A stretch of 41,224 nt of DNA from the NCBI GenBank assembly GCA_007131245.1, contig SLQX01000120.1, positions 1-41,224 on the forward strand. The letters run 5' to 3'. Every line of letters starts with the position of its first letter. The stretch's first letter is position 1. The translations under genes and the position numbers were made by a program. Source of the DNA: Bacteroidales bacterium (GTDB lineage: Bacteria; Bacteroidota; Bacteroidia; Bacteroidales; UBA7960). The notes below the pieces were generated by a model. The model had not been told where the DNA came from, did not search any database, and saw only the letters and a program-made list of their open reading frames with translations. Positions 3,864 to 11,285 of the stretch are shown here, piece after piece.

Positions 3864-4847
3864 TCAGGTTTTCGTTCTTTCAAACATCATCTTCAAATCG
3901 GCCAGAGCAATAGCTGTAACAGCCTCAATGACAACAGGTACACGTAAAGCAATGCATGCGTCATGTCTCCCTTTTACTTCCAGTGTTTCCACTTTTTGAC
4001 TCTCAATACTATAAGTTTTTTGCTTTACACCAATGCTGGAGGTTGGTTTAACAGCTACCCTGTATACAAGCTGGTTTCCATTGGTAAGTCCACCGGTGAT
4101 GCCACCCGCATTGTTGGTTGCAGTTTTACCTGTATCATCCAGGATGGGGTCGTTATGGTCACTGCCTTTCATAGCGGCAGCATGAAAACCAGAGCCAAAC
4201 TCAACACCTTTGATGGCCGGAACAGCAAAAACCAGGTGACTGATTAAAGATTCAACGGGGTCAAAAAACGGTTCGCCCCACCCCAGGGGGATATTATTTG
4301 CCACACACTCAACCAATCCACCCACAGAATCACCTTTATCCAAAGCTTCAGATAGGGCTTTTTCAATATCTTTCTTCCCTCCCGCCTCAATCAATTTTGC
4401 CTGGATCTTTACCCCTGCAATAAGCTTTTTAGCCAGTACTCCGGCTGCAACCAAAGCCAGTGTGAGCCGGCCTGAAAAATGCCCTCCACCCCTGTGGTCA
4501 TTAAATCCGCCAAACCGTTTCCAGGCGACAAAATCAGAGTGTCCCGGACGGGGTGTTTTAACCAGGTTGTCATAATCCCCGGATCGAACATTTTTATTGC
4601 GAAACAAAATGGTAATGGGAGCCCCTGTGGTATGCCCCCTGAAATGACCAGAAATGATTTCAGGTAAATCGTCCTCTTTACGGGGTGTAGTTCCTTTTGC
4701 GCCTGGCTTGCGCCGTTCCAAATCAGCAAGAAAATCGTCAACAGAAAGATCAATTCCGGCGGGGCATCCATCGATGGTAACACCAACCCCGGCCCCGTGA
4801 GACTCACCAAAGATGGTCAAACGAAATATTCTACCAAATGTGTTCAT
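3864..4847 (-). CDS. aroC: Chorismate synthase
   Basis: The enzyme converts EPSP to chorismate, the last shikimate step, using reduced FMN. Clear signatures are FGESHGAGVGVTIDGCPAG near the N terminus, the RRKPG stretch, DHRGGGHFSGRLT (fits the S-[AG]-R-x-[ST] pattern), and NAGGITGGLTNG near the C terminus. At 327 residues it is somewhat shorter than the roughly 350-360 typical of many bacteria, but all core motifs are present. It is the last gene of the aromatic operon, 67 bases after aroA. The start is the ATG at 4847. Confidence 0.96.
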   Translation of the reverse strand: MNTFGRIFRLTIFGESHGAGVGVTIDGCPAGIDLSVDDFLADLERRKPGAKGTTPRKEDDLPEIISGHFRGHTTGAPITILFRNKNVRSGDYDNLVKTPRPGHSDFVAWKRFGGFNDHRGGGHFSGRLTLALVAAGVLAKKLIAGVKIQAKLIEAGGKKDIEKALSEALDKGDSVGGLVECVANNIPLGWGEPFFDPVESLISHLVFAVPAIKGVEFGSGFHAAAMKGSDHNDPILDDTGKTATNNAGGITGGLTNGNQLVYRVAVKPTSSIGVKQKTYSIESQKVETLEVKGRHDACIALRVPVVIEAVTAIALADLKMMFERTKT

Positions 4848-4914: not shown

Positions 4915-6168
4915 TCACTCCCCTTTTATAGTTGCACCAAGGGAAGCTAAATCGTTAAAAAACTGCGGATAAGATTTATCAATGGCCTCAGTCTGTTCAA
5001 TTACAACAGGTCCCCGGGCATTTAGCCCTGCCACAGCACAAGCCATGGCTATTCGGTGATCGTTGTGCGAGTGCACCCTGGCTCCATTTACAGGGCCACC
5101 TTTCACCAGCATATCATCTCCTTGCGTTTTTATGGTAATCCCCATCTTGCCAAATTCACGTTGCAATGCCACAGCCCGGTCACTTTCTTTTACCCTGAGC
5201 CGGGAAACTCCGCGGATAAGGGTTTCCCCCTTACAGGCTGATGCCAGGGCTACCAGCGGTGGAAAAAGGTCAGGACAGTGAGTCGCATCAAATTGAAATC
5301 CCTGAAGCTTATGCTGATGAACTGTAATGTGCCTTTCTCCTGTTTCAATCCCTGCACCACAATCTTTTAAGGCCTGAACAACAGCTTTATCGGCTTGCCT
5401 GGAATGGATGTTCATATTTTCAACGTTAACCTCCCCGGTTATTGCAGCCGCTACAAGTAAAAAAGCAGCACCACTCCAGTCTCCTTCCACATGATAGTTT
5501 TGAGGTTTATAAGCTTGGGGTGCAGGAATATAAAACTCCCGGTAATTTCTGTTTTCAACAGAAACCCCAAAATCATTCATCATAGAAGTGGTAATATCGA
5601 TATAGGGTTGGCTTTTCAAATCCTTTACCCGCAAAGTCACATCAGAATGAGCCAATGGAGCGGCAATCAGCAATCCTGTGAGAACTTGTGAGCTTGTCGA
5701 ACCATCTATGATGGCCACCCCACCCGGCAAAGGCCCCTGGACATCCACGGGAAGGTAGCCTTGGCGTGTTTTGCAATTCACCCCCATGGCCAGAAGGGAA
5801 TCCTCCACCATGTTCATAGGACGCTGTGCCAGTGAACCACTTCCCGAGAGGGTAATTTTTCCACTCAAGGTGGCAGCTATGGCTGAAAACATGCGTAATC
5901 CAAGCCCCGACTCACCACAATGCAGCATACCTCCGGGTGGGCGAATACCACCGTTAATGCGAACAGGGTTTCCCGATTCGGCAATCTCAGCACCAAGTTC
6001 ACGGCAAACGCCCATGGCAGCTCTTACATCAGCTGAAGAACCTACATGGTAAACATTGGATATACCCCTGGCAAGGGAAGCAAGAGCAATTGCCCTTTGT
6101 GCAACACTTTTGGAGGCCGGAGCCTTAACAACTCCTTTTATTTCTGAAGGAAACACTTCCTTTATCAT
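4915..6168 (-). CDS. aroA: 3-phosphoshikimate 1-carboxyvinyltransferase (EPSP synthase)
   Basis: The enzyme joins shikimate 3-phosphate and phosphoenolpyruvate to make EPSP. It has 417 residues, a normal length. Visible are the substrate-binding KS pair at 20-21 (APASKSVAQR), AQRPMNMVEDSLLAMG, the HCPDLFPPL segment with a likely catalytic Asp, RVKESDRAVAL, and NDHRIAMA. The phosphoenolpyruvate loop, usually GNAGTxxRP, reads GESGLGLRM at 85-93, so the positions equal to E. coli Thr97 and Pro101 are Leu and Met. It sits 56 bases after aroB and 67 before aroC in the same operon. Confidence 0.95.
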   Translation of the reverse strand: MIKEVFPSEIKGVVKAPASKSVAQRAIALASLARGISNVYHVGSSADVRAAMGVCRELGAEIAESGNPVRINGGIRPPGGMLHCGESGLGLRMFSAIAATLSGKITLSGSGSLAQRPMNMVEDSLLAMGVNCKTRQGYLPVDVQGPLPGGVAIIDGSTSSQVLTGLLIAAPLAHSDVTLRVKDLKSQPYIDITTSMMNDFGVSVENRNYREFYIPAPQAYKPQNYHVEGDWSGAAFLLVAAAITGEVNVENMNIHSRQADKAVVQALKDCGAGIETGERHITVHQHKLQGFQFDATHCPDLFPPLVALASACKGETLIRGVSRLRVKESDRAVALQREFGKMGITIKTQGDDMLVKGGPVNGARVHSHNDHRIAMACAVAGLNARGPVVIEQTEAIDKSYPQFFNDLASLGATIKGE

Positions 6169-6224: not shown

Positions 6225-7250
6225 TCAAAACGCTGACACAAACTTTTCCATGATATCCAAAGGAATTTTGCGAACAACTGCCTTTCCTATAGTTTCCAGC
6301 AATATAAAATGGACACCTTCACGCTCCTTTTTTTTATCCTTCAGCATGGCCCCGAGAACTTCCTTACGGTCAAAATCTTCAGTAACCGGTAAGCCGTAAC
6401 GTGGCAAAAGCTGTAAAATACGCTCCTTCTCTCCCGCAGACAAATCGGTCATTTTTTCGGAAAGATGAGCCGAAAAAGCCATTCCAATGCTTACAGCTTT
6501 ACCATGAGGTATACCAGTTACTTTTTCCACAGCATGGCCCCAGGTGTGCCCAAAATTCAACAAGCGTCTTTCTCCGGCTTCGCGTTCATCTGCTTGCACA
6601 ATGTTTGATTTAATCTGTACAGAGCGCCTCACCAGTTCATCAATCTGTGTTTTGTTTTGCTTCACAATATCCACATTGTATTTCTCCAACAGGCCAAACT
6701 TAGTTGCATCTTTTATAAGTGCATGCTTGATTGTTTCAGCCATTCCATTTATAAATTCATCCCGGGGCAGGGTATGCAGCAGAGAAGTATCACAAAGTAC
6801 AAACCCGGGTTGGGTAAATGTACCCACTATATTTTTGTATCCCCTGAGATTTACGCCATTTTTACCACCAACACTGGCATCAACTTGTGCCAGCAAGGAA
6901 GTTGCCACAAAGCCAAACTGAACTCCCCGCATAAATGTGGCCGCTACAAAACCGGCTATGTCACAAACGACCCCACCACCAAAACCCAATACAAAACTGT
7001 TGCGATCAGCACCCTGTGTTAAAAGCCACTGATAAACATCCTCAAGGGCTGTTAAATCCTTGGAACTTTCCCCAGGATGGAGCTCATATACAGGAAAGTC
7101 AGGAAATTTATCCCGGTGATGGTGTGCAACATTTCTGTCTGTGAGAATAAAAACATTTTCTGTGGGGAGCAACTTTTCCAACATATGGGTGCAATCCCCA
7201 ACATATACCGTTGACAAGGCATTTGAGGTAATCAATTCAAATTTTTCCAT
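6225..7250 (-). CDS. aroB: 3-dehydroquinate synthase
   Basis: The enzyme cyclises DAHP to 3-dehydroquinate, the second shikimate step, with NAD and a metal ion. The sequence shows the nucleotide-binding GFGGGVVCDIAGFVAATFMRG region, VDASVGGKNGVN, and the metal-ligand segment LLNFGHTWGHAVE. Its length of 341 residues is normal. I start at the ATG at 7250; the frame extends two codons upstream to a TTG at 7256, which is less likely. It lies 21 bases after the DAHP synthase-mutase gene. Its frame ends 56 bases before aroA. Confidence 0.95.
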   Translation of the reverse strand: MEKFELITSNALSTVYVGDCTHMLEKLLPTENVFILTDRNVAHHHRDKFPDFPVYELHPGESSKDLTALEDVYQWLLTQGADRNSFVLGFGGGVVCDIAGFVAATFMRGVQFGFVATSLLAQVDASVGGKNGVNLRGYKNIVGTFTQPGFVLCDTSLLHTLPRDEFINGMAETIKHALIKDATKFGLLEKYNVDIVKQNKTQIDELVRRSVQIKSNIVQADEREAGERRLLNFGHTWGHAVEKVTGIPHGKAVSIGMAFSAHLSEKMTDLSAGEKERILQLLPRYGLPVTEDFDRKEVLGAMLKDKKKEREGVHFILLETIGKAVVRKIPLDIMEKFVSAF

Positions 7251-7271
7251 GGGCAAACCAACATCATCTTT

Positions 7272-8405
7272 TCAGACAAAGTTATGTTCTTTTTTTAGAT
7301 TTTTTCTTTTGTCGTTTATCAATGTATGCTGAAGGGATAGAGATTCCTGGTGTATGGAGTTGAACAGTTTCTCAATAAACATGGGTCTAACCCCCGATTT
7401 GGCAGCAAGTAATTTCACCCGCTGCATAATCTGTTCCCATCTTTGGGACTGAAGGGGCTGCTGGCAAGCATCTTTTTTCACTTCAGCAATCTTTCCTGCC
7501 AGTTCCATTCGAACAGACAATGCCCAAACAAGCATCTCATCCATATTATCCACTTCCGCTCTCAATTCATCCAGCAATTCTCCGGTAATCGGGTCTTGTT
7601 TTTCTCCCAGCAGGTCATCCAGCAAACGGGTAAATTCTCCGGGGGCAATTTGCTGGCTGGCATCACTCCAGGCTTTGTCAGGCTCAGAATGCACCTCTAC
7701 CATAAGTCCTGACAGGTTTTTCTCCAAAGCCCTACGGGCCAAAAGTGGCACCAGGCTTCTTTTACCTGCAATATGGCTTGGATCGGAAAGAATGGGCAGG
7801 CCAGGTAAACGCTCTTGAAGCTCAAGGGGAATATTCCAAAAAGGTTGGTTACGCATATGCGACTTGGCCCACCAAAAGAAACCTCTGTGAATAGCACCCA
7901 ACTTATTTATACCCGTCCTTGAGAAGCGTGTAATTGCACCTTCCCAAAGGTCAATATCAGGACTTAAAGGATTTTTTATCCATACAGGAATGTCAACCCC
8001 CTTTAAACTATCAGCAATTTCCTGCACCACAAAAGGATTGCTTACGGTTCTTGCACCCACCCAAAGCATATCCATGCCTGCTTTTATAGCGGCTTCCACA
8101 TGTCTGGCAGAACCTACCTCGGTGATTATTTTTAAACCAGTCTGCTTTTTCACTTGCTGCATCCATTCTAGTCCGGGTGCTCCCACACCCTCAAAAGTAC
8201 CAGGCAGGGTGCGTGGTTTCCATATCCCGGCCCTGAAATAATCCACCCTGTTATCCATAGCAAGTTGTGATGCCGTTGCAAACAGTTGTTCAGGAGTTTC
8301 TGCACTGCACGGTCCTGCTATGATCAAAGGCTTTTTCTCAAGCAGGGAGTTGGAATTTTCATCATTCCGTGAGTCGGGAGAGTTTTTGTCAGAGTCTGTT
8401 TTCAT
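7272..8405 (-). CDS. Bifunctional DAHP synthase / chorismate mutase (type II)
   Basis: The N-terminal domain (about 25-270) is a KDOP/DAHP-type aldolase that condenses phosphoenolpyruvate and erythrose 4-phosphate. Motifs are IIAGPCSAE, FRAGIWKPRT, KIITEVGS, MLWVGARTV, WIKNP, GAIHRGF and ILSDPSHIAGKR. The C-terminal 90 residues (LRAEVDNMDEMLVWALSVR onward) are an AroQ-type chorismate mutase. This fusion is known in Bacteroidota, where the mutase helps allosteric control by prephenate. One polypeptide therefore catalyses the first shikimate step and the first Phe/Tyr branch step. I chose the ATG at 8405; an in-frame ATG at 8444 would add 13 residues that look unlike the family. It follows tyrA in the operon. 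Confidence 0.93.
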   Translation of the reverse strand: MKTDSDKNSPDSRNDENSNSLLEKKPLIIAGPCSAETPEQLFATASQLAMDNRVDYFRAGIWKPRTLPGTFEGVGAPGLEWMQQVKKQTGLKIITEVGSARHVEAAIKAGMDMLWVGARTVSNPFVVQEIADSLKGVDIPVWIKNPLSPDIDLWEGAITRFSRTGINKLGAIHRGFFWWAKSHMRNQPFWNIPLELQERLPGLPILSDPSHIAGKRSLVPLLARRALEKNLSGLMVEVHSEPDKAWSDASQQIAPGEFTRLLDDLLGEKQDPITGELLDELRAEVDNMDEMLVWALSVRMELAGKIAEVKKDACQQPLQSQRWEQIMQRVKLLAAKSGVRPMFIEKLFNSIHQESLSLQHTLINDKRKNLKKEHNFV

Positions 8406-8482
8406 AAGGCTGTTTATTATTAAAATTTTACAAAGCTTTAGCATTTTGGTATTTCAGGAGGAAATATGTACTCCATTCATCA

Positions 8483-9385
8483 TCAGGAGTAATATACTTT
8501 AGGTGCACCCTGCGTTTCAACGGCAACGGCAGGTTTTTCACCCCGGTAATTCAATTTCTCGTAGTTGGTATTTGCTGTTTGTATAGCTCCGTTAATCTTT
8601 TCTTCATCTTGCTGTTCAACAGCGTTTTTGAGTTCGGTAAGTTTTTCCATATAAGCATCGATAAAAGGGAGAAGATTTTTCTTGTTTTGTTGAAAAACAG
8701 GCATCCACATATCGGCTGAACTTTTCCCCAACCTGATAGAAGACTGCAGTCCTCCACCTCCCAGCTCAACCCAGTCTTCAAAAGAAGGCTCATCAAACTG
8801 GGGTAATGAAGCAAGGGCATAAGCAATAAACTGCGGCAAATGAGAAACCAACGCCAGCTGCCTGTCATGCTGTAAGGACTCCATAAACAAGGCTCTCATA
8901 TTCAATTCCTGCAGCAGGGTCATTGCCTTGCTGAGAGCCTGACTTGAAGACTTTTGGGGATCGCAGATAATTACCCGTGCATGACGAAAAAGGTCAACGT
9001 GGGCAGCCATAGGGCCTGAATGCTCAACACCTGCCATTGGGTGGGCAGCCACAAAATTTGCCCGCCGGTTAAGGGTGTCTGCCAGGCGGCAAATGTCTTC
9101 TTTGGTGCTACCCATATCCATTACCGTGGTATGAGGACCTACGTTGTTGAGAACATCGGGAAGCAATTTTATAATTCCATCAACGGGAATGCAAAGTATA
9201 ACCACATCTGCACTTTCAAGAGCTTCCCCCGGAGAAGCTTCTGCTTCATCTATGCCACCCATGGCCAGGGCTTTTTCAAGATGCATAGGGTTGTTGTCAA
9301 TGCCCCGGATATGATGACCTGACTTTTTCAGGGCCATGCCCATAGAGCAACCGATGAGTCCTGTTCCAATAATTGTAATATTCAT
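8483..9385 (-). CDS. tyrA: Prephenate dehydrogenase
   Basis: The enzyme oxidises prephenate to 4-hydroxyphenylpyruvate, the committed tyrosine step. The NAD motif GTGLIGCSMGMALK is at 7-20. The catalytic-histidine segment AAHPMAGVEHSGP, ICDPQ, and the C-terminal helical domain with LALVSHLPQFIAYAL are visible. No ACT domain follows, so feedback control is not obvious in the protein. It is the first structural gene after the double attenuator and the 5' gene of tyrA-DAHPS/CM-aroB-aroA-aroC. No pheA or aminotransferase gene is present in the window. The start is the ATG at 9385. Confidence 0.93.
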   Translation of the reverse strand: MNITIIGTGLIGCSMGMALKKSGHHIRGIDNNPMHLEKALAMGGIDEAEASPGEALESADVVILCIPVDGIIKLLPDVLNNVGPHTTVMDMGSTKEDICRLADTLNRRANFVAAHPMAGVEHSGPMAAHVDLFRHARVIICDPQKSSSQALSKAMTLLQELNMRALFMESLQHDRQLALVSHLPQFIAYALASLPQFDEPSFEDWVELGGGGLQSSIRLGKSSADMWMPVFQQNKKNLLPFIDAYMEKLTELKNAVEQQDEEKINGAIQTANTNYEKLNYRGEKPAVAVETQGAPKVYYS

Positions 9386-9432: not shown

Positions 9433-9460
9433 AAAAAAAAGCCCCTGCTATGCAGAGGCT
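9433..9460 (-). terminator. Distal attenuator terminator upstream of tyrA
   Basis: On the minus strand AGCCTCTGC (9460-9452) pairs with GCAGGGGCT (9448-9440), a 9-bp stem with one G-T pair and a 3-base loop, followed by a T-run (9440-9433). It lies 47 bases upstream of the tyrA start, inside the operon leader, so it is an attenuator rather than a gene-end terminator. CCTCTG of its 5' arm is complementary to CAGAGG in codons 18-20 of the leader peptide just before it. Confidence 0.87.
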
Positions 9461-9489
9461 CCGGTTTACAAACATATTTTATGCAGATA

Positions 9490-9561
9490 TTACCCAGTCA
9501 GACCTCTGTGAAAGTTGAGATAGAAATAAAAATAATATCCGAAATAAAAATGGCTTCTCAT
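9490..9561 (-). CDS. Phe/Tyr-rich leader peptide 2 (distal attenuator)
   Basis: This short frame starts with the ATG at 9561 and ends at a TAA at 9490-9492. It encodes 23 residues, 10 of them Phe or Tyr (F5, Y6, F7, Y9, Y10, F11, Y12, F13, Y14, F17). The core is FYFGYYFYFYLNF. Codons 18-20 (CAC AGA GGT) carry an RNA segment complementary to the 5' arm of the terminator at 9433-9460. A ribosome stalled for lack of charged tRNA-Phe or tRNA-Tyr would leave that segment free and prevent termination. A ribosome reaching the stop codon would cover it and allow termination. No clear Shine-Dalgarno site is visible, as is common in Bacteroidota. It is far too short and biased to be an ordinary protein. 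Confidence 0.88.
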   Translation of the reverse strand: MRSHFYFGYYFYFYLNFHRGLTG

Positions 9562-9646
9562 CTGAATTTAAATTAGTTCGTTTTTTTTTCTGAGCTTTTC
9601 TTGCACCAAAAAAAACTTGTTTAATTAATTTGTTTGGCTTTACCTC

Positions 9647-9675
9647 AAAAAAAAAGCCCCTTTCCAGGGGCTTTT
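9647..9675 (-). terminator. Proximal attenuator terminator
   Basis: On the minus strand AAAAGCCCCT (9675-9666) pairs perfectly with AGGGGCTTTT (9661-9652) across a GGAA loop, followed by more T residues to 9647. This is a strong 10-bp intrinsic terminator. It lies within the operon leader, 34 bases after the first leader peptide stop. Its AAGCCCC arm is also complementary to GGGGCTT at 9717-9711, at the end of that peptide's frame. Confidence 0.9.
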
Positions 9676-9708
9676 CATGTAAAATATGCTGTTTTTTTCA
9701 TTACATAC

Positions 9709-9774
9709 CTAAGCCCCGCTCTTACCTATATAGTAAAAGTAAAAGAAATAGGTATATATAGAAAAATTTCTCAT
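9709..9774 (-). CDS. Phe/Tyr-rich leader peptide 1 (proximal attenuator)
   Basis: The frame starts with the ATG at 9774, about 12 bases after the predicted transcription start, and ends at a TAG at 9709-9711. It encodes 21 residues, 9 of them Phe or Tyr (F4, Y7, Y9, F10, F11, Y12, F13, Y14, Y15). The core is YTYFFYFYY. The last codons (GGG GCT TAG) contain GGGGCTT, a 7-base match to the 5' arm of the terminator at 9647-9675. A stalled ribosome would allow that antiterminator pairing; a finishing ribosome would mask it. The peptide resembles leader 2 in its MR start and its alternating Tyr/Phe run, so the two modules may be duplicates. Confidence 0.9.
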   Translation of the reverse strand: MRNFSIYTYFFYFYYIGKSGA

Positions 9775-9792
9775 CTTTTCTTTTTCAAGCTG

Positions 9793-9823
9793 CAAGTATA
9801 AGCATATTTTTTAGTAAAACAAA
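9793..9823 (-). promoter_or_regulatory. Promoter of the aromatic amino acid operon
   Basis: On the minus strand TTTG (9823-9820) is followed after exactly 19 bases by TATACTTG (9800-9793), one base from the Bacteroidota -7 consensus TAnnTTTG. Transcription would begin near 9786, just ahead of leader peptide 1. The tyrA start is then about 400 bases downstream, leaving room for both attenuators. Confidence 0.7.
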
Positions 9824-10075: not shown

Positions 10076-10678
10076 ATGTTCAACAAAGTACAGGAACTGG
10101 AGAAGAAAGACTTTAAACGCAATTATCTTACCTACCTGGCAATTTTTGCCATCATTGCTATCCCATTGTATACCTGGCTTTTTGGCACCAAGGAGTCACC
10201 ATTGGATTATACACTGAGCATGATTGGCAACAAGCTGGGATACCGTATAAACTTTATTATATGGGGTACCATTACGGGTTTGCTCTTAACATTTTACCTT
10301 CTCAGGTTGTATGTCTTAAAATCATTTCACAACCCCCGTGCACGCCGGCTGCTGATATGGTCATTGATATTCCTGATACTTACAGTACTTATACCGGCTG
10401 TAGAACATCTCCCCCTGCTAAAAAGACTTCATGCCATTGCAGCAGTAGCCTTTGGAGTTTCCCTGACAGTTTCACTATATATGTTTATCCGATACCTTCA
10501 GAGCATCGACCAAAAGGTTTCCATTAAATCCATGTGGATGCTATACACGGTTATACTAGGTTCCATTTCTCTGTTTTTCCTGTTTGGGAACACGGGTGTT
10601 TTTGAACTGTTTTTCTTTTTTTCCATTTCCATATTTCTCACATTACTCAATCGCTGGCTAAGCCAGAAGCAAGGTTAA
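10076..10678 (+). CDS. Six-helix membrane protein, possibly DUF998-like
   Basis: This 200-residue protein is an integral membrane protein with a short charged N terminus and about six hydrophobic segments (near 18-36, 57-79, 90-107, 117-137, 152-170 and 174-192). The stretch DYTLSMIGNKLGYRINFIIW resembles the LSxxG signature seen in DUF998-type proteins, but the match is weak. No catalytic residues are evident. It lies just upstream of the exported flavodoxin-like gene, 31 bases before that gene's ATG, so the two may be cotranscribed and might act together at the membrane. Function is unknown. Confidence 0.55.
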   Translation: MFNKVQELEKKDFKRNYLTYLAIFAIIAIPLYTWLFGTKESPLDYTLSMIGNKLGYRINFIIWGTITGLLLTFYLLRLYVLKSFHNPRARRLLIWSLIFLILTVLIPAVEHLPLLKRLHAIAAVAFGVSLTVSLYMFIRYLQSIDQKVSIKSMWMLYTVILGSISLFFLFGNTGVFELFFFFSISIFLTLLNRWLSQKQG

Positions 10679-10709
10679 AATTCATTTGACAATCATAAAA
10701 ACCAGGAAA

Positions 10710-11285
10710 ATGCAACCAACCATCCAAAAATTATTTATCGGCTTATTGTTGGCAGGACTCTTTATCACTTCACAGTCACAGACTCAAATCTTAATCAGCT
10801 ATTATTCAAAAACCGGTAATACTGAGGCTATGGCAGAAGCGGTGAAAAAAGGAGCTGAAAGTGTTGACAAAGTAAGTGTACTCCTGAAAAGTGTTGAAGA
10901 CACCACAGAAGAGGACTTGCTGGAAGCATCTGCAATTATTGTGGGTAGCCCGGTTTATAACGCCAATGTTGCCCCGCAGGTACAGGAGTTTATAACCTTA
11001 TGGCCGTTTGAGGGTACACCCTTGAAAAACAAAGTAGGTGCTGCCTTTGTAACGGCAGGAGGAATTTCGGCTGGTGAAGAAGCTACTATGCTCAATATTC
11101 TTCAATCTATGATGATATTTGGAATGATCATCGTGGGAGGAGATGATTGGACAGCCCCTTTTGGGGCATCAGCCATCGTGGGAGAACCTCCATTCGATAA
11201 AACAGAAACCATCGATCCGGAGTTTTTACAAAAAGGAGAAAATTTGGGCCGCCGGGTGGCAGAAATAACCCTTAAGTTACAATGA
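10710..11285 (+). CDS. Flavodoxin-like protein with N-terminal signal sequence
   Basis: After a hydrophobic leader (KLFIGLLLAGLFITSQSQ) the protein continues as a flavodoxin-like fold. ILISYYSKTGNTEAMAEAV is the typical phosphate-binding loop for FMN, and SAIIVGSPVYNANVAPQVQEFI with AAFVTAGGISAGEE are typical of NAD(P)H:quinone oxidoreductase/WrbA relatives. The leader looks like a cleavable signal peptide, which would place the protein outside the cytoplasm and is unusual for this fold. I start at the ATG at 10710, preceded by AGGA; the frame continues upstream only to a TTG at 10686. It follows the six-helix membrane protein. Its redox partner is not evident. Confidence 0.8.
   Translation: MQPTIQKLFIGLLLAGLFITSQSQTQILISYYSKTGNTEAMAEAVKKGAESVDKVSVLLKSVEDTTEEDLLEASAIIVGSPVYNANVAPQVQEFITLWPFEGTPLKNKVGAAFVTAGGISAGEEATMLNILQSMMIFGMIIVGGDDWTAPFGASAIVGEPPFDKTETIDPEFLQKGENLGRRVAEITLKLQ

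Follow-up and report, generated by a model that had tools for sequence, protein, structure and literature searches.

Two complete leader-peptide attenuators lie between one promoter and tyrA in a Bacteroidales bacterium and are predicted to act in series

Two complete leader-peptide attenuators sit between one promoter and tyrA in the window, as we call the whole 41,224-nucleotide stretch of Bacteroidales DNA analyzed here. In textbook attenuation, an operon has a single leader peptide and a single terminator. Based on the anatomy of the leader, its conservation, the pairing of each module with itself, the absence of a second promoter-like site and the shared codon content, we consider it very probable that both are ribosome-mediated transcription attenuators that work independently, one after the other, on a single transcript initiated 5′ of module 1. 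The sequence, the promoter scan and the codon counts support the original prediction in its central claim, namely two complete modules behind one promoter, belonging to the same operon and both reading Phe and Tyr.

RESULTS

Anatomy of the leader and its genomic setting

The interval 9433-9823 has as its exact limits the −33 box and the end of the second T run, and its features are read on the minus strand, upstream of tyrA (Table 1). Phe or Tyr accounts for 9/21 codons in ORF 1 and 10/23 in ORF 2, both of which lie 5′ of tyrA and the gene for DAHP synthase fused to chorismate mutase (DAHPS-CM), and an intrinsic terminator precedes the first gene in both modules. The hairpin energies are about −16 kcal/mol for terminator 1 and about −15 kcal/mol for terminator 2, with folding z-scores of −6.4 (module 1) and −3.3 (module 2). 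ORF 2 begins 85 nt after terminator 1, or 89 nt if counted from the terminator stem, and tyrA starts 47 nt past the T run of terminator 2. Alternative pairings of the ORFs are present in the minimum-energy folds of the window modules, conservation aside. An Rfam search of the window at gathering thresholds returned no match to a known family, T-box and riboswitch leaders included.

Table 1. Coordinates of the leader features and of the operon genes in the window
Feature	Position	Strand	Details
Promoter −33 box, TTTG	9820..9823	-	19-nt spacer to −7 box
Promoter −7 box, TATACTTG	9793..9800	-	Bacteroidota consensus TAnnTTTG
Leader ORF 1, MRNFSIYTYFFYFYYIGKSGA (then stop)	9709..9774	-	21 codons: 4 Phe + 5 Tyr
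Module 1 antiterminator strand, CGGGGCTTAGGTATGTAAT	9700..9718	-	spans ORF 1 end; duplex −18.5 kcal/mol
Module 1 partner strand, TTTACATGAAAAGCCCCT	9666..9683	-	overlaps terminator 1 5′ arm
Intrinsic terminator 1, GAAAAGCCCCT-GGAA-AGGGGCTTTTT + T run	9647..9676	-	
Leader ORF 2, MRSHFYFGYYFYFYLNFHRGLTG (then stop)	9490..9561	-	23 codons: 5 Phe + 5 Tyr
Module 2 antiterminator strand, ACAGAGGTCTGACTGGG	9493..9509	-	within ORF 2 end; duplex −15.8 kcal/mol
Module 2 partner strand, ACCGGAGCCTCTGC	9452..9465	-	overlaps terminator 2 5′ arm
Intrinsic terminator 2, GGAGCCTCTGC-ATA-GCAGGGGCTTT + T run	9433..9462	-	
tyrA, prephenate dehydrogenase, first operon gene	8483..9385	-	Pfam PDH_N, PDH_C
DAHP synthase fused to chorismate mutase	7272..8444	-	Pfam DAHP_synth_1, CM_2
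aroB, 3-dehydroquinate synthase	6225..7256	-	
aroA, EPSP synthase	4915..6168	-	
aroC, chorismate synthase	3864..4847	-	

The rest of the window genome was checked by pattern searches and family searches. Only the tyrA leader has a short ORF that contains a run of seven Phe/Tyr codons and is followed by a terminator. The sole prephenate dehydratase gene found (L238, G000:C47) is at another site in the genome and lacks a terminator-bearing Phe/Tyr leader. A second DAHPS-CM gene (L139, G000:C206), 45% identical, has no Phe/Tyr leader module, and a similar gene is present in another genome of the genus (L157). The genes 5′ of the leader are divergent (10076-11285, plus strand) and encode a flavodoxin-like protein and a small membrane-like protein with no Pfam match; L140 has similar genes beside the operon.

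Each module pairs with its own terminator

The antiterminator strand at the end of each ORF pairs with the 5′ arm of the terminator that follows, as judged with swapped arms as the control. Over 127 modules, the duplex with the own terminator arm has a mean of −16.8 kcal/mol, versus −10.7 kcal/mol after swapping (standard deviation of the permuted mean, 0.25), and for the module 2 strand of the window the own arm is at rank 2 among 127 arms. In double loci, a strand pairs better with its own arm than with that of the neighboring module in 49/52 tests, which argues that each switch is separate. In the window, the stop codon lies within the module 1 strand and at the end of the module 2 strand, so in each module the strand would be covered by a ribosome positioned there. 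The placement is a fact of the sequence, and the masking would follow by analogy with established attenuation mechanisms.

Distribution in Bacteroidales and conservation within the genus

In an order-wide survey, Phe/Tyr modules were found 5′ of the first gene in most aromatic operons of Bacteroidales, with a detector that requires at least 6 Phe/Tyr within 11 codons plus a terminator; it was tuned in this analysis, and the order-wide count depends on it. At least one module was detected in 63/85 real leaders and two in 22/85, while dinucleotide-shuffled leaders passed through the same detector gave one module in 2/850 and two in 0/850, and 1.23 Mb of control sequence (non-leader and antisense) gave a single module. 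Chance U-rich sequence was rejected as a source of the modules because shuffled and control sequences are almost module-free. About 40 loci from Epsilonproteobacteria, where tyrA is related and the leaders differ, contained one weak match (L021).

One module is present in 65 of the 104 leader-bearing loci and two in the other 39, counts that are approximate because the assemblies are drafts and weak modules may escape the detector; a few scores (L140, L181 and L199) were assigned manually, the detector having missed a module that can be seen by eye. Flavobacteriia-type and Segetibacter loci carry single modules. On a tree of the DAHPS-CM protein (104 loci), the single or double state changes at least 12 times, counted without direction (gain or loss); the tree is based on this one protein and leaves out loci without a detected module, so the shares apply to leader-bearing operons. 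The premise of the original prediction that ordinary attenuators come one per operon does not hold in Bacteroidales, where doubling is common.

Both modules are complete in 5/5 members of the genus whose leader is intact (the window, L140, L083, L085 and L087), terminator 1 and module 2 are visible in L086 before the contig ends, and module 2 alone is visible in L084, at a contig edge. The promoter layout TTTG-N19-TAATATTG is the same in three relatives of the genus. A sequencing or assembly artefact, which had been raised as a way in which the pair could prove unique, was rejected since the pair is conserved in these other genomes. The module 1 peptides of the genus have a YTYF-type run in common and the module 2 peptides have FGYYF, and each module 1 is closer to other module 1s than to its neighboring module, suggesting that the pair predates the genus. 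The MR start, proposed as a sign of duplication, occurs on both peptides only in the window genome within its genus, and a recent duplication marked by it was rejected, as module 1 groups with other module 1s across the genus. In the overall comparison, modules from one locus resemble each other slightly more than modules from different loci do, and therefore the pair may have arisen by an old local duplication. In family f93 (L162, L163 and L167), module 2 ORFs can start far 5′ of the run (e.g., MQNVQNIETTRAEQQVRLRSLFSASYFYFFYYW...), and the N-terminal part of this ORF in L162 resembles that of L163.

Doubling also extends to the histidine operon. In 69 hisG leaders, one His-rich module was found in 46, two in 16, and three in one (perhaps spurious), and two modules are present in 14/30 hisG leaders from the family of the window. 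In the genus itself, two were scored in L247, L251, L257 and L262 and three in L256, and L249 has two by inspection. The doubled leaders in the genus and family suggest that doubling is a habit of the lineage and not a peculiarity of tyrA. The serial His-rich peptides with terminators in L257 include MNNFNNHHHHNPLIPTE and MKTNQVNSFSAIHHHLHHHHAVKYLCRKN, and further double hisG leaders in the family are those of L227, L250, L252 and L264-L266. In the window genome, the hisG contig (L233, reverse strand, first 45 bases) begins inside a terminator, with the his leader beyond the contig edge, and a His-codon pattern search of this genome was too unspecific.

Alternative readings of the pair

A promoter between the modules would give module 2 its own transcript, with one attenuator on each, and the 89 nt between the first terminator stem and ORF 2 in the window leave room for one. 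However, a scan with the TTTG/TAnnTTTG consensus (the sigma-70 consensus was set aside as wrong for the phylum) gave a score of 9 for the upstream promoter of the window, whereas the best match in the spacer, TTTG-N18-TAATTAAA, reaches 7 of 10. In the survey, 67% of upstream regions score at least 9, with the promoter usually about 50 nt 5′ of the ORF and before module 1, and 0/26 inter-module spacers do so; the median spacer is 28 nt, and half are below 29 nt. We therefore rejected a separate promoter for module 2, a reading that we regard as highly improbable, and the single promoter stands after the stretch between 9640 and 9562, where a second one would have made the attenuators independent, was checked. 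The modules could also form an AND gate, with one sensing chiefly Phe and the other chiefly Tyr. Such an arrangement would suit an operon that makes precursors for Phe and Tyr alike, and mgtCBR offers a precedent for tandem attenuators with unlike signals (PMC3641672), but the peptides of the window are mixed almost equally (4F/5Y and 5F/5Y), and in 37 pairs, with about 8 Phe/Tyr codons in module 1 and about 9 in module 2, the Phe share of Phe plus Tyr is 0.45 and 0.44, respectively (Wilcoxon p=0.61). The equal share in both positions argues against the AND gate, which was rejected and is very unlikely, and for one signal repeated. Judged from the codons, the modules are not of the mgtCBR type that senses different signals, and both would appear to read the same amino acids, Phe and Tyr equally. 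At Phe/Tyr codons, 111/173 changes are synonymous or exchange Phe and Tyr, versus about 22% expected, which gives weak support because the substitution count pairs modules by similarity and leans to conservation.

It is also conceivable, though unlikely, that regulation rests on one module, with the other persisting by chance as a redundant or decaying copy. A single module suffices in many relatives (65/104), and module 2 of the window resembles its counterparts in relatives less than module 1 resembles its own. On the other hand, the run, the terminator and the own-arm pairing are kept in both modules in all complete genus members despite changed arms, which suggests selection on each. That single-module relatives regulate the same operon speaks against two modules being required. 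Finally, the prematurely ended first RNA or its peptide might act in trans, leaving module 2 as the real switch of the operon; in Sinorhizobium, a trp leader peptide is reported to act in trans (PMC7298713). We give this almost no credence, as the peptides are little alike across families outside the Phe/Tyr run and hints of a target are absent.

DISCUSSION

Under serial attenuation, plentiful charged tRNA-Phe and tRNA-Tyr would bring the ribosome to the stop codon, where it would cover the antiterminator strand, so that folding of the terminator would halt RNA polymerase. Scarcity of either amino acid would instead stall the ribosome within the Phe/Tyr run and leave the antiterminator strand free to pair with its own terminator 5′ arm, and the polymerase would continue. 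The polymerase would have to pass both decisions before tyrA-DAHPS/CM-aroB-aroA-aroC, and if the decisions are independent, read-through would be the product of the two, with leak multiplying and logarithmic sensitivities adding. Ribosome stalling, the termination efficiencies, the multiplication and a selective reason for the arrangement are what we infer from the leader.

Attenuators of the trp, his and pheA type share with the window a leader peptide rich in codons for the products of the operon itself, the competition of an antiterminator with an intrinsic terminator, and a stop codon that lets the ribosome cover the antiterminator strand. The window differs from them in having two complete same-signal modules in series, mixed Phe/Tyr runs and a Bacteroidota promoter, and a classical 1:2 protector hairpin is at most a candidate there. 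The closest precedent is mgtCBR of Salmonella, where two translated leader ORFs likewise lie in one leader of one operon; its tandem attenuators, one responding to ATP and one to proline, have additive effects, and the system was described by its authors as a singular example (Lee and Groisman 2012, PMC3641672). Those signals are different, whereas in the window the same amino acids would be read twice and each module has its own intrinsic terminator. Tandem riboswitches such as metE of B. clausii (cited in PMC3641672) also place two terminators in series, but they are ligand-binding RNAs for two different ligands, unlike the translating ribosome proposed for the window.

Closer in phylogeny, a Flavobacterium transcriptome described structured 5′ elements before pheA and hisG that show clues of leader-peptide attenuation, have no Rfam match and are conserved in Flavobacteriaceae (PMC9723704). 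They resemble the window in phylum, genes, suggested mechanism and the missing Rfam match, and the portion of that paper drawn on here makes no mention of a double arrangement; the Flavobacteriia-type loci examined by us have one module, versus two in the window. A map of B. thetaiotaomicron mentions leader-peptide-like ORFs in general terms only (PMC7366714). We found no description of same-signal leader-peptide attenuators in series in the open-access literature, and subscription papers may differ. To a 2010 survey, leader peptide systems were known from Proteobacteria and Actinobacteria, with its own Firmicutes case as the sole addition (PMC2965389), and our survey extends the record of such attenuation to Phe/Tyr genes across Bacteroidota, beyond the phyla covered at that time.

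Elf and Ehrenberg treated single attenuators and their trade-off between leak and sensitivity (PMC1183508), and a second module may offer another means of reducing leak, beside this single-attenuator theory. As stacked attenuators with the same input recur, closely related one-module operons are natural controls, and whether leak multiplies and sensitivities add in series becomes a quantitative question that is directly testable. On balance, we are inclined to regard same-signal serial attenuation as a general design of this Bacteroidales family, used in aromatic and histidine operons, with at least a dozen switches between single and double forms in the order, and as a modular way in which leak and steepness may be set by adding attenuators instead of tuning one.
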